A stretch of DNA of 64,000 nt from Candidatus Saccharimonadota bacterium (lineage in GTDB: Bacteria > Patescibacteriota > Saccharimonadia > Saccharimonadales > Saccharimonadaceae), in the NCBI GenBank assembly GCA_030529135.1, contig JAUMXO010000003.1:1-64000 (forward strand). Reading direction: 5' to 3'. The translations under genes and the position numbers were made by a program. The notes below the pieces were generated by a model, which was not told the DNA's origin, ran no database searches, and saw only the letters and a program-made list of their open reading frames with translations. Below are positions 43,066 through 56,593 of this stretch, in pieces; the stretch's first letter is position 1; every line of letters begins with the position of its first letter.

Positions 43066-43150
43066 TGGTGCTGGAAGTAGGACTCGAACCTACGAAGGCC
43101 GAAGCCGAGAGATTTACAGTCTCTTGTCATTGCCACTAGACGATTCCAGC
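43066..43150 (-). tRNA. tRNA-Tyr(GTA)
   Basis: Acceptor GCTGGAA / TTCCAGC, anticodon arm AGAGA-CTGTAAA-TCTCT (anticodon GTA), long variable arm as expected for tyrosine, T-arm GTAGG-TTCGAGT-CCTAC, discriminator A and encoded CCA. Confidence 0.95.
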
Positions 43151-44690: not shown

Positions 44691-45593
44691 CTATGCGTGG
44701 ATCACCGTATGTTTGAGGCGATGAATCTGATGAAGATCCTCGTCCACGACGTGGGTATAAGTCATAGTGACTTGAATACTTGCGTGGCCGAGAAGCTCCT
44801 TTACATAGACGATATTGGCATTATTCCGAAGTAGATCGGTCGCGAACGAGTGACGAAGCGTGTGAGGGTGGATATTCTTATCTAAACCAGCCTTAATAGC
44901 CGCATTTTTAACAACCATCTGAACAACGCCGGGATTGATTTTTTCGCGACCTTTTAGCTGTTCCGAAACAAAGAGAGCCGGATACGGATCATCGCGGAGA
45001 GCAAGATATTCATCGATATACTTATGAGTGACTGGATCAATGAAGCAGACACGAGGTTTATTACCCTTTCCGATCACCGTAAAGCTATCTACGCCTGGCT
45101 TAATCTGGCTACGCTCCATTTGACACAATTCACCATTACGCAGCCCAGCACTAAACATCAAAGCAATGATAGCTCGATTTCTATACCGCTTAAACCGCGA
45201 ATAGCCCGGCCCTTTCTGAAATACAGCATGAAGCATAGCTTCTACTTCTTCGACCTCGAGATAATCAACGACGCGAGAATCGCGCTTCGGGATTCCTACA
45301 GCTTCGGCATCGAGAACCTCATAGCCACGAGCCTTGAGGTGTTTCAAGACTACGCGAAGCTTGAGGATATACCCACGCACTGTATTCGAAGTGCGCGTCT
45401 TTCTAAGATCCGTCGTCCATTTACGGACTTGATCAAATTCTAATTCCGAGATCGGAATATCGCCGAGGAAATTGACGATGGATTTCATCGCACAAATATT
45501 CATTTCCTCCGTCTTGGCTGATTGGTTTTTGTAGACGATCACGTCCTTACGATAAAGCTCAAAAGCTTCCGAGAGAGTTAAATCTGGTTTCAT
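44691..45593 (-). CDS. Tyrosine recombinase (phage integrase, XerC/D type)
   Basis: Site-specific recombinase presumably inserting the prophage into tRNA-Thr. N-terminal SAM-like core-binding domain (about 1-95), catalytic domain with Arg in MFSAGLRNGELC, HTLRHSFATDLL (HxxR), LLGHASIQVTMTYTHV (His and nucleophile Tyr). 300 residues, the compact Xer-like form. Expressed leftward with the small 45635 gene; four direct repeats lie just after it. Confidence 0.93.
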   Translation of the reverse strand: MKPDLTLSEAFELYRKDVIVYKNQSAKTEEMNICAMKSIVNFLGDIPISELEFDQVRKWTTDLRKTRTSNTVRGYILKLRVVLKHLKARGYEVLDAEAVGIPKRDSRVVDYLEVEEVEAMLHAVFQKGPGYSRFKRYRNRAIIALMFSAGLRNGELCQMERSQIKPGVDSFTVIGKGNKPRVCFIDPVTHKYIDEYLALRDDPYPALFVSEQLKGREKINPGVVQMVVKNAAIKAGLDKNIHPHTLRHSFATDLLRNNANIVYVKELLGHASIQVTMTYTHVVDEDLHQIHRLKHTVIHA

Positions 45594-45934: not shown

Positions 45935-46152
45935 AAATACCGCTCCTGAAGAAGCTCGCAAAAATACACATACTCGTACCTCCACGAGAAATTAGATTAA
46001 TATTAATGCGTGTCTACCTCACCCGGGGAGGCCGGCACTGGAACCCTGAAAAAGCTCCTATTTTTTACATAGGAGCTCTTGGCTCCTACGCGGAGCCGCT
46101 AATCGCAATTTCTTCGTTAATTACATTATACCTCATACGGTTATAAAGTCAA
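45935..46152 (-). promoter_or_regulatory. Promoter and attenuator-like leader of the integrase unit
   Basis: The minus-strand promoter is TTGACT, 16-base spacer, TATAAT (46125-46152). The leader folds into GGCTCC-GCGTA-GGAGCC followed by AGCTCCTAT / ATAGGAGCT with TTTTTC after it (about 46050-46077), which reads as an intrinsic terminator ahead of the genes. A second -10 box (TATAAT on the minus strand) lies near 46254-46259. No gene is seen in 45,935-46,379. Confidence 0.6.
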
Positions 46153-46300
46153 CGATTTTTCGACTCGAACTCAGAACAGATGCTTTGTCCGGACGGAACA
46201 TTGCCTTGGTTACTATCAATATTTTGAGAATGCGACGCGCGCATTCTACTCTGTTATTATAACATATTTCTCTAAAGAAATAAATGGTAATAGAGGTAGC

Positions 46301-55002: not shown

Positions 55003-55031
55003 TTGACAATTTTAACATAGTATGCTATAAT
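55003..55031 (+). promoter_or_regulatory. Perfect promoter of the 55202 gene and large RNA
   Basis: TTGACA (55003-55008), 17 bases ending TATGC, TATAAT (55026-55031). The leader from about 55038 to 55201 contains short hairpins, such as one capped by CTTCGG near 55168. Confidence 0.94.
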
Positions 55032-55201
55032 GGATACAAGTTCGTGCGAAAAGCATGAATTGGGATTTTAACAAGCGAAGACGAATAACTATACCCTACC
55101 AATATATTTACCACTTTCCAAGTTTTAGAGTTGAGTTGAACGAAGGTTGATGGCCTATAAGTCGCTACCTTCGGGAGCGCTTGGCAGGAAAGGAGGTTAG
55201 C

Positions 55202-55540
55202 ATGGCTAACTTTGAGGTAAATTGGTCTGGGAGTCGTTATTGTCTTTGCTATGGTGAATGGACTATACGCCGTAATGGCGTAGATGTCTCTGATCTGATA
55301 CCAGATAATCTGAGAAATAACCATATGGATACTCGTAAAGAGTATTCAGCATGGCATTTCACAGAGGACTGGGACGAGGAATGGGAATACTACTTTGATG
55401 GTCTTTCGGCCAAAAAGTGGGTTCGCAAGAATCGTTATTGGATCAGTAAAATCTGCTCAAATAGGGAGGAAGAGTTCCAACTCTACCACGCGATCAATGC
55501 TCTCGACTGGAGACATAGTTCGTGCGGAGGTTGCATTTAG
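55202..55540 (+). CDS. Small conserved-type phage/Firmicutes protein, unknown
   Basis: 112 residues from ATG 55202 behind AAAGGAGG. Rich in Trp, Tyr and acidic residues (HFTEDWDEEWEYYFDGLSA) with the ending DWRHSSCGGCI, a style I associate with uncharacterised small proteins of Clostridia and their phages. The three Cys at the end could bind metal or form a redox site. The stop codon lies inside a 9-bp hairpin, and the same transcript should continue into the large RNA at 55582. Confidence 0.72.
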   Translation: MANFEVNWSGSRYCLCYGEWTIRRNGVDVSDLIPDNLRNNHMDTRKEYSAWHFTEDWDEEWEYYFDGLSAKKWVRKNRYWISKICSNREEEFQLYHAINALDWRHSSCGGCI

Positions 55541-55548
55541 CAACCTCC
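55526..55548 (+). other. Hairpin over the stop codon of the 55202 gene
   Basis: GGAGGTTGC, loop ATTTA, GCAACCTCC: a perfect 9-bp stem. No U-tract follows, so readthrough into the downstream RNA is expected. Confidence 0.85.
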
Positions 55549-55581
55549 TCCTATCTGGCGATTTTATTCACCTAGCAAACT

Positions 55582-56207
55582 CCTAGTGCGGGGGAGAAAA
55601 AACCGCACTCTGTAGGTTAGCTAGCCCTGAGAGGGTAAAAATAAGGGTTCAATTCCCTTACTAGTTTTGGACCGGGGTAAACCCCGGAGGTGGCTCCGCC
55701 ATGAGCCAGATAAGTGTGCGGATGAGGCACACATTGGCCGGAGGCTCCAGTCATGAGCCAATATAAGTGTATCGAGGCCTGCCATTGGGGACGGTGCGAA
55801 TAAGGCATCGTTGCAGCAGGGGCCCAGGAAATGAGGGGCCGAAGCCTATCTAGGAAATGGGATAGGGATACACATTGACCTGCTTCCCGTGGCAGTATCA
55901 CATACGGGAACCTGCAGATAAAGGCCAGTGCATATGAGGCACTGGTGACTCGCGGAGCGAAAGAGCCAAGAAGTGTTTGCCTTGGCGGACGCGCCGAGGT
56001 AAGACACTTACTTCTCGGCGGACGCGCTGAGAAGATGGCTTATAAGCAGCGAGTGCAGGTTGAGGACGAGTTTTGTAGATATTTTCCTGCCGAGGATGGG
56101 TGAGTGGAAAAATCTAAACGATCGCGGCCCCTTAGAGGGGATATCGGGAAAGGGAGAAATCCCCCGCGAAAGTCTGGGTAGGGCGAGATAAGGCCCACCC
56201 TAGTGCG
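55582..56207 (+). ncRNA. Large ornate structured RNA candidate (about 626 nt)
   Basis: This stretch lies between the 55202 gene and an intrinsic terminator and contains no credible gene. Perfect helices read by eye include CCGGGG-TAAA-CCCCGG (55672-55687), GTGTGC/GCACAC (55714-55732), ACGGTGC/GCATCGT (55791-55811), GTGTATC/GATACAC (55767-55773 with 55867-55873), TTCCCGT/ACGGGAA (55884-55910), CCAGTGC/GCACTGG (55925-55945), AAGTGT/ACACTT (55971-56009), two GACG-capped stems (55980-55999, 56011-56034), AGCCA/TGGCT (55964-56040), TCGCGG/CCGCGA (56122-56169) and GGGT-A-GGGC/GCCCACCC (56176-56200). Terminal loops repeatedly end AURAG. A T-arm mimic lies at 55643-55659. Size, prophage location and complexity match GOLLD/ROOL-type RNAs; I cannot assign a family by eye. 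Confidence 0.85.
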
Positions 56208-56212
56208 TATCT

Positions 56213-56593
56213 TTATCCCTCGACGATGTCGGGGGATTTTTCTTGTCTAACTGCCTTCCGATAAGCTTCCATAGCCTCGCGAACTCCACATTCTGGACAG
56301 ATCTCCGTCTCATTATCCTCACGTGAGAGTGCTGGATATTCCGTAAACTCCTTCTTGCATTTCGGGCAACGCTGAATCTCGAGGATTTTATAAGTTAGAA
56401 CCTTGGGTAGTTTTTCAAGTTCCCACCTCAACACATCCATATCATCATAGCGTTTGGCGTCAACCAGGAACGAAGAATAACGTTCATCGGTGCGGAGTCT
56501 CTTACCGTTTGAGTCTTTTTCGCCAACATAGTACCAGATATCCTTATCATGGATAACGCCAATCACATATTCTAAAATCCCAATATAACTCAT
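56213..56593 (-). CDS. Zinc-ribbon phage protein
   Basis: 126 residues. A zinc ribbon (RCPKCKKEFTEYP ... EICPECGVREAM, about residues 76-108) follows an alpha/beta N-terminal part. Nucleic-acid or protein binding is possible. The AGTTGTTATG context has only a weak Shine-Dalgarno. Its last codons form the terminator of the convergent RNA. Part of a leftward run with 56602 and 56916. Confidence 0.72.
   Translation of the reverse strand: MSYIGILEYVIGVIHDKDIWYYVGEKDSNGKRLRTDERYSSFLVDAKRYDDMDVLRWELEKLPKVLTYKILEIQRCPKCKKEFTEYPALSREDNETEICPECGVREAMEAYRKAVRQEKSPDIVEG
56215..56242 (+). terminator. Terminator of the large RNA transcript
   Basis: ATCCCTCGAC, loop GAT, GTCGGGGGAT: a 10-bp stem followed by TTTTC. 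It overlaps the last codons of the convergent minus-strand gene. Confidence 0.92.

Follow-up and report, generated by a model that had tools for sequence, protein, structure and literature searches.

An apparently new family of large structured RNAs in ruminant-gut Saccharibacteria and its possible place in a putatively TrmB-controlled regulon

Results and discussion

What kind of RNA is encoded by the gene-free stretch at 55582-56207 of a contig from a tiny, parasitic member of the Saccharibacteria that lives in the gut, and what might it be for? The window analyzed here is a 64,000-nucleotide stretch of DNA (GCA_030529135.1, contig JAUMXO010000003.1), in which a first-pass annotation had proposed, at these positions, a large ornate noncoding RNA resident in a prophage. 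To our knowledge, very few classes of large structured RNA are known in bacteria, and the purpose of ornate RNAs is also the standing question for GOLLD and ROOL. With a fold proven by covariation, a defined operator, and candidates for the regulator and the enzymes, the RNA described below gives a direct handle on that purpose. The family also links two versions of one RNA, on the host chromosome and in a prophage.

Layout of the transcription unit

The stretch encodes the 3' half of a folded RNA that is large and conserved in evolution. It is gene-free and structured, as first annotated, but the 626-nt boundaries were drawn too narrowly; reading of the sequence predicts a transcription unit of about 1.2 kb that runs from a promoter through a 5' hairpin, an ORF and the structured RNA to a terminator. 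The promoter that had been said to frame the RNA (TTGACA, 17 nt, TATAAT; 55003-55031, + strand) is indeed a 12/12 match to the sigma-70 consensus, but it lies approximately 580 nt before the reported start, with a small ORF (55202-55540, +) in between. The predicted transcript start is near 55037 and is followed by a 9-bp hairpin (55039-55061, +) that, from folding, is likely to be stabilizing; of 11 transcripts that were folded, every one has a hairpin of this kind within about 1-5 nt of its inferred +1. Likewise, the intrinsic terminator (56215-56245, +) has the ten pairs claimed for it (56215-56237) plus a T-run, but it sits just beyond the reported 3' end. The extreme degree of structure is borne out: the window copy (55541-56245) folds at -297.7 kcal/mol, compared with -243.0 +/- 7.5 in 20 dinucleotide shuffles (z -7.29).

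A conserved fold with a pseudoknot

Alignment of homologues proves a conserved RNA structure, pseudoknot included. In the 11-sequence alignment, the 102 pairs of 14 helices are 96.1% standard, and pairing falls to 39-46% when the partner strand is slid by one to three columns. Compensatory changes occur at 50 of the 102 pairs, whereas shuffles give 18.9 +/- 2.9 and none of 500 reaches 50. Changes among the relatives thus support 14 helices. Many of the dozen or more perfect helices first read from a single sequence were right, but the pairing near 55880-55916 belongs to a pseudoknot that such a reading could not show.

The family-conserved part of the window RNA spans approximately 55743-56240 and begins with a 5' domain of variable length (55743-55876, +), for which a separate alignment (A5), of fewer sequences than for the core, has 98.4% of cells paired and six pairs with double changes. 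The 5' hairpin module (GGCTC..GAGCC-ATAAG-GTGTGC..GCACAC) can be read a further time just upstream (55692-55741, +), and a similar tandem module is found in L004. The 5' domain is followed by an H-type pseudoknot (55880-55908, +), in which 55880-55883 pair with 55892-55895 and 55886-55890 with 55904-55908. Its stems, CUGC/GCAG and CCCGU/ACGGG, carry compensatory changes at eight of nine pairs, and they lead into an 8-bp helix, AACCUGCA/UGCAGGUU, that closes the core.

The core domain (55909-56061, +; closed by 55909-55916 with 56054-56061; models R1 and R2) is present in 12/12 RNA-positive genomes of the genus and in L012. Within it lie two hairpins with GACG caps, A (55971-56009) and B (56011-56034). 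Two of its strands, GGAGCGAAAG and UUAUAAGCAGCG, are strongly conserved and in the window read GGAGCGAAAGAGCC (55954-55967) and UUAUAAGCAGCG (56040-56051), all on the + strand. In genome G364 hairpins A and B are gone, while both motif strands and the flanking helix are kept; because the strands are retained without the hairpins, we infer that they form the functional centre of the RNA. The 3' domain (56062-56207, +), in which helices 10-13 covary, includes a conserved GNRA hairpin, GGGA-GAAA-UCCC (56152-56163, +), and helix 14, the terminator stem, covaries as well.

A conserved protein across the stretch, which would have contradicted the gene-free reading, was looked for in the alignment of homologues, and no conserved reading frame was found. 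Indels among homologues are mostly not multiples of three and substitutions lack strong codon periodicity, which excludes a conserved protein. Covariation and the lack of conserved coding, the general marks of a conserved structured noncoding RNA, are therefore both present.

Relation to known RNA classes

Rfam searches of the locus returned only chance matches at E<=10, with none to GOLLD, ROOL, OLE, HEARO or Y RNA, and those of the whole window returned three tRNAs and nothing else. These five classes also gave no match at the gathering score, and five homologues searched at E<=1 matched none of them either. There was also no raiA match in the Rfam search, although the raiA model may be missing from the Rfam set used, a custom profile having been employed in PMC12286853. 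The suggestion that the RNA is a divergent member of GOLLD or ROOL is thus unsupported by the covariance models, on the locus or on its homologues, and the other option raised at the outset, a new class, agrees with the lack of any matching Rfam family. By these models the RNA represents a new family of large structured bacterial RNAs that is distinct from GOLLD, ROOL, OLE and HEARO, and its identity as a conserved structured RNA of a new family is near certain. No earlier report of structured RNAs in Saccharibacteria was found in the open-access papers searched.

GOLLD RNAs are encoded in phages and prophages, often near tRNA islands, and form a homomultimeric cage, and ROOL RNAs have a conserved quaternary kissing loop. 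Several features of the new family recall them. Like GOLLD, the RNA is large and ornate, the window copy resides in a prophage, and a conserved 3' part is joined to a variable 5' part, with a tRNA-like piece in the 5' linker. That piece (55615-55667, +) lacks an anticodon arm, has the T-arm GGGTTCAATTCCC and scores 18.3 bits with the tRNA model, below the gathering score of 29 and with an E-value of 1.2 over all families; by eye, it was not seen in other copies of the RNA. Size, a multibranch fold, a pseudoknot, a conserved 3' and variable 5' region with a possible tRNA-like piece, and prophage residence have all been described for GOLLD (PMC12286853). Unlike GOLLD, however, the new RNA is about 500 nt long, has chromosomal copies in a host regulon and has no covariance-model match. 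Resemblances to ROOL include an origin in the rumen or ruminant gut, large size, a pseudoknot and proximity to phage genes, but the helices differ, no covariance-model match was obtained and the new family is patchy within one Saccharibacteria family. OLE and HEARO are likewise large structured bacterial RNAs associated with a small protein gene; they gave no covariance-model match at any threshold used, and the ORF partners of the new family are unrelated and interchangeable.

These comparisons bear on whether the RNA could be a GOLLD- or ROOL-like RNA-only homomultimer, a cage or ring whose subunits are joined by kissing loops, in a CPR lineage. The size, the strong multibranch fold with its pseudoknot, the conserved 3' and variable 5' organization with a tRNA-like piece and the prophage residence would suit such an assembly, as would the palindromic hairpin loops UGCGCA and GUGCAC of the divergent copies L030, L031 and L033. 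The palindromic loops, however, lack conservation in the family as a whole, the majority of copies are outside any recognizable prophage, and neither sequence nor structure matches GOLLD, ROOL or OLE. We consider a homomultimer unlikely, though a serious contender.

Distribution in ruminant-gut Saccharibacteria

Within the Saccharibacteria genus to which the window belongs, DNA searches and our own covariance models identified the RNA in 12 of 174 genomes, in agreement with the CPR host first proposed. The window's own genome (G000) has two copies, the second on contig C14 (2500-3080); G356 also has two, and G330 has a tandem duplication. One further copy occurs in a sister genus (G239), and a covariance-model search of the class gave no credible homologue in its other members. 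Weak matches from the DNA search (L015-L017) and from model R2 (L105, L106, L107, L114) were unrelated or coding on reading and were dropped. A sequence-pattern scan found 12 stretches in genome contigs, all from Candidatus Saccharibacteria metagenome-assembled genomes (MAGs) and most labelled sheep intestine; the same scan of a viral collection gave no match, and a phage nucleotide search with the locus gave chance matches of 30-40 nt only. As far as searched, the RNA appears to be confined to a single GTDB family of Saccharibacteria from the ruminant gut. All of these data are MAGs, and many RNA copies lie at contig ends.

Some copies have unusual arrangements. In L003 (reverse complement, about 1485-1510) a deletion joins the -35 element to the core, with loss of the -10 element and the 5' domain, and this copy is probably decaying. 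In L031 (1440-1830) the core hairpins occur in tandem and are followed by three copies of TTTCCTGCC..AAGTGGAAAA.

Small-protein cassettes upstream of the RNA

The small ORF of the window unit (112 aa from ATG, 119 aa from the upstream TTG) is a co-transcribed cassette belonging to phrog_20678, and relatives of it lie directly behind the tRNA clusters of T4-like Bragavirus phages; none was found in the viral contig collection. A 62.5% identical homologue occurs at L086/L013, and L013 thus combines the window-type ORF with one of the most divergent RNAs. Five other loci (L002, L004, L008, L009, L011) have an unrelated ORF of about 100 aa with its own structured leader, and L033 and L030 have yet other ORFs upstream of the RNA, that of L030 being proline-rich.

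In the window, as in L002, L004, L008 and L009, a single unit comprises promoter, ORF, RNA and terminator, so that the RNA could be a cis-acting structured 3' UTR that controls the stability or translation of the ORF. In L006 and L014, however, the promoter leads straight to a standalone RNA with no ORF, the ORFs are mutually unrelated, and the family of about 100 aa is present without the RNA at L005, L074 and L078. This independent assortment of ORF and RNA argues against a simple 3' UTR, which we regard as quite improbable.

Two side observations concern these cassettes. The upstream ORF of L030 (about 1270-1470) has repeated PPPLPPRR motifs that are SH3-ligand-like. The leader of the ORF of about 100 aa is conserved and structured in L002, L008, L004, L005, L009 and L011, with the motifs GGGCCC..GTTCCGCCCA..TGGGTGCCG and GACTATAAG..GAAGGTC, and may be a separate RNA element.

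Prophage and chromosomal settings

The prophage residence of the window copy, part of the initial proposal, is well founded. Near-identical repeats over the tRNA-Tyr gene (43077-43143 and approximately 77293-77360, contig C22) place the prophage at about 43.1-77.3 kb (approximately 34 kb), integrated in tRNA-Tyr, and its genes include an integrase (44691-45593), endolysin, holin, terminase and portal, with structural genes starting near 60.6 kb. The window copy has no adjacent tRNA genes, yet it lies in a tRNA-Tyr prophage. It is also the only clear phage copy. The others, that on C14 included, are outside recognizable prophage, being chromosomal or at undecided contig ends, and together with the empty scan of the viral collection this leaves a typically phage-borne RNA without support. 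Chromosomal copies adjoin a TrmB-type regulator, a MazG protein and a SpoU methylase, or follow the 16S rRNA gene; the second arrangement occurs in two species, with the RNA unit directly 3' of the terminated gene (L002:1-128, L008:1-130).

Such varied settings (behind 16S, near TrmB, in a prophage), the patchy distribution and the tandem copies in L030/L033 and L031 could be those of a selfish RNA that moves between chromosome and prophage as a mobile element or ribozyme, for instance an intron-like one. Every full copy, however, comes with a promoter and a terminator of its own, neither a target-site duplication nor an interrupted gene was observed, and nothing resembling a group I or group II intron was found with Rfam. 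Mobility of this kind is very improbable, and a self-splicing or ribozyme identity found no support.

The co-existence of a host copy (C14) and a prophage copy in one genome, 82% identical to each other, raises another possibility, namely that the prophage copy, made from a host-independent promoter, is an anti-defence decoy or host-takeover RNA that by mimicry draws the protein partner away from the host RNA. The prophage copy does lack the host operator (see below), and the flanking left arm is unusual in that six proteins near the RNA, besides the ORF, have homologues in RNA-bearing chromosomal islands that belong to the regulon. There is, however, no sign of antagonism, and the prophage copy, its conserved core being intact, could equally serve the host function. 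We consider a decoy improbable.

Two further elements were noticed at these loci. A short promoter-hairpin-terminator unit in the prophage (window approximately 46020-46250, - strand) is possibly another small RNA, and the ORF downstream of the RNA in L033, at 1845, looks like smpB by eye.

A shared operator and a candidate TrmB-like switch

Several chromosomal copies of the RNA are preceded by a fixed array consisting of TGTAAAA-N5-TTTTACA, approximately 22 nt, ACCYCTGTTA and then a TTTACT-17-TATAAT promoter. The window promoter is unlike this operator-linked TTTACT type; operator-like boxes in the window have one to three mismatches and lie mostly inside genes, and the prophage copy has no operator. 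A genus-wide search with the 45-bp operator found 19 sites (L135-L153) in 11 of 170 genomes, compared with one match for the reversed control, and the layout of the 19 sites is nearly always identical. The genes 3' of these sites encode the RNA, the small-ORF family, HD proteins, Csx3, a sigma-region-4-like protein and unknown proteins. The Csx3 assignment is above the Pfam cut-off and has a PADLOC value of 8e-17; the genes, Csx3-like ring-nuclease relatives, are under the operator in G338 and G057 (L137:1086-1391 and L148:1090-1395, both -). The operator-linked genes appear to make up a previously undescribed Saccharibacteria regulon.

The TrmB-like protein (in G025, C8:973-1758) matches the TrmB Pfam family, and its predicted model resembles TrmBL2, with a PLD-like carboxy-terminal part. 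Close orthologues occur in 12 genomes, nine of which are among the 11 with the operator (Fisher p 4e-11, a value inflated by relatedness), leaving three with the orthologue and no operator. The overlap with the 12 RNA-positive genomes is seven (p 6e-7, within the genus and likewise inflated by relatedness). Five genomes with TrmB have no model-detected RNA, and five RNA-positive genomes have no close orthologue, two of these having a distant one and G036, G356 and G393 none. From this co-occurrence we infer that the TrmB-like protein is the switch that binds the operator. The gene between TrmB and the RNA encodes two His-x-Thr/Ser motifs in what is predicted to be a CNPase-like 2H phosphodiesterase fold (pLDDT 67.9, low).

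These associations suggest an explanation that we favor at somewhat less than even confidence: the RNA would be a stable noncoding RNA of about 500 nt belonging to a stress regulon of the RNA-end or defence type, and captured by a prophage. The mechanism proposed is as follows. The TrmB-like protein would bind the operator on chromosomal copies and switch on, together, the RNA, the small proteins and a set of RNA-end or cyclic-nucleotide enzymes (the CNPase-like 2H phosphodiesterase, HD proteins and Csx3). Under RNA damage or phage stress, the RNA would then serve the machinery of the regulon in trans, as a scaffold or cofactor that persists for long. The prophage would have captured a copy and placed it under a consensus promoter that, lacking the host operator, may allow it to be made independently of the host regulator. 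Points that weigh against this reading are the RNA-positive genomes that have no close TrmB orthologue, the TrmB genomes in which the models detected no RNA, the low confidence of the CNPase-like model and the missing operator of the prophage copy. The more specific claim, that in CPR bacteria this new class of large RNA is the RNA part of a regulon for RNA repair or cyclic-nucleotide defence under a TrmB-like sensor, that its small-protein cassettes can be swapped and that the version captured by the prophage is free of the host switch, is doubtful enough to be offered only tentatively.

Bacterial Y RNAs provide an analogy for this role, as they accompany RtcB/RtcA RNA-repair operons (PMC7790460). 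As in the rsr-yrlBA-rtcBA operon, a noncoding RNA is apparently co-regulated with RNA-end enzymes, and one copy, that of the window, has a tRNA-like element. The new RNA differs in being much larger, with another fold and no Rfam match, and the partners differ also: a TrmB-like protein rather than RtcR, and CNPase-like, HD and Csx3 proteins rather than RtcB and RtcA. No Ro60/Rsr gene was recognized in the RNA neighbourhoods read.

The same operator also precedes a different, apparently structured transcript in two genomes (L119, - strand, promoter at 349; L121, - strand, promoter at 403). This transcript contains TATCAACGAAAT...CGTTGATAC and is perhaps a second RNA family.
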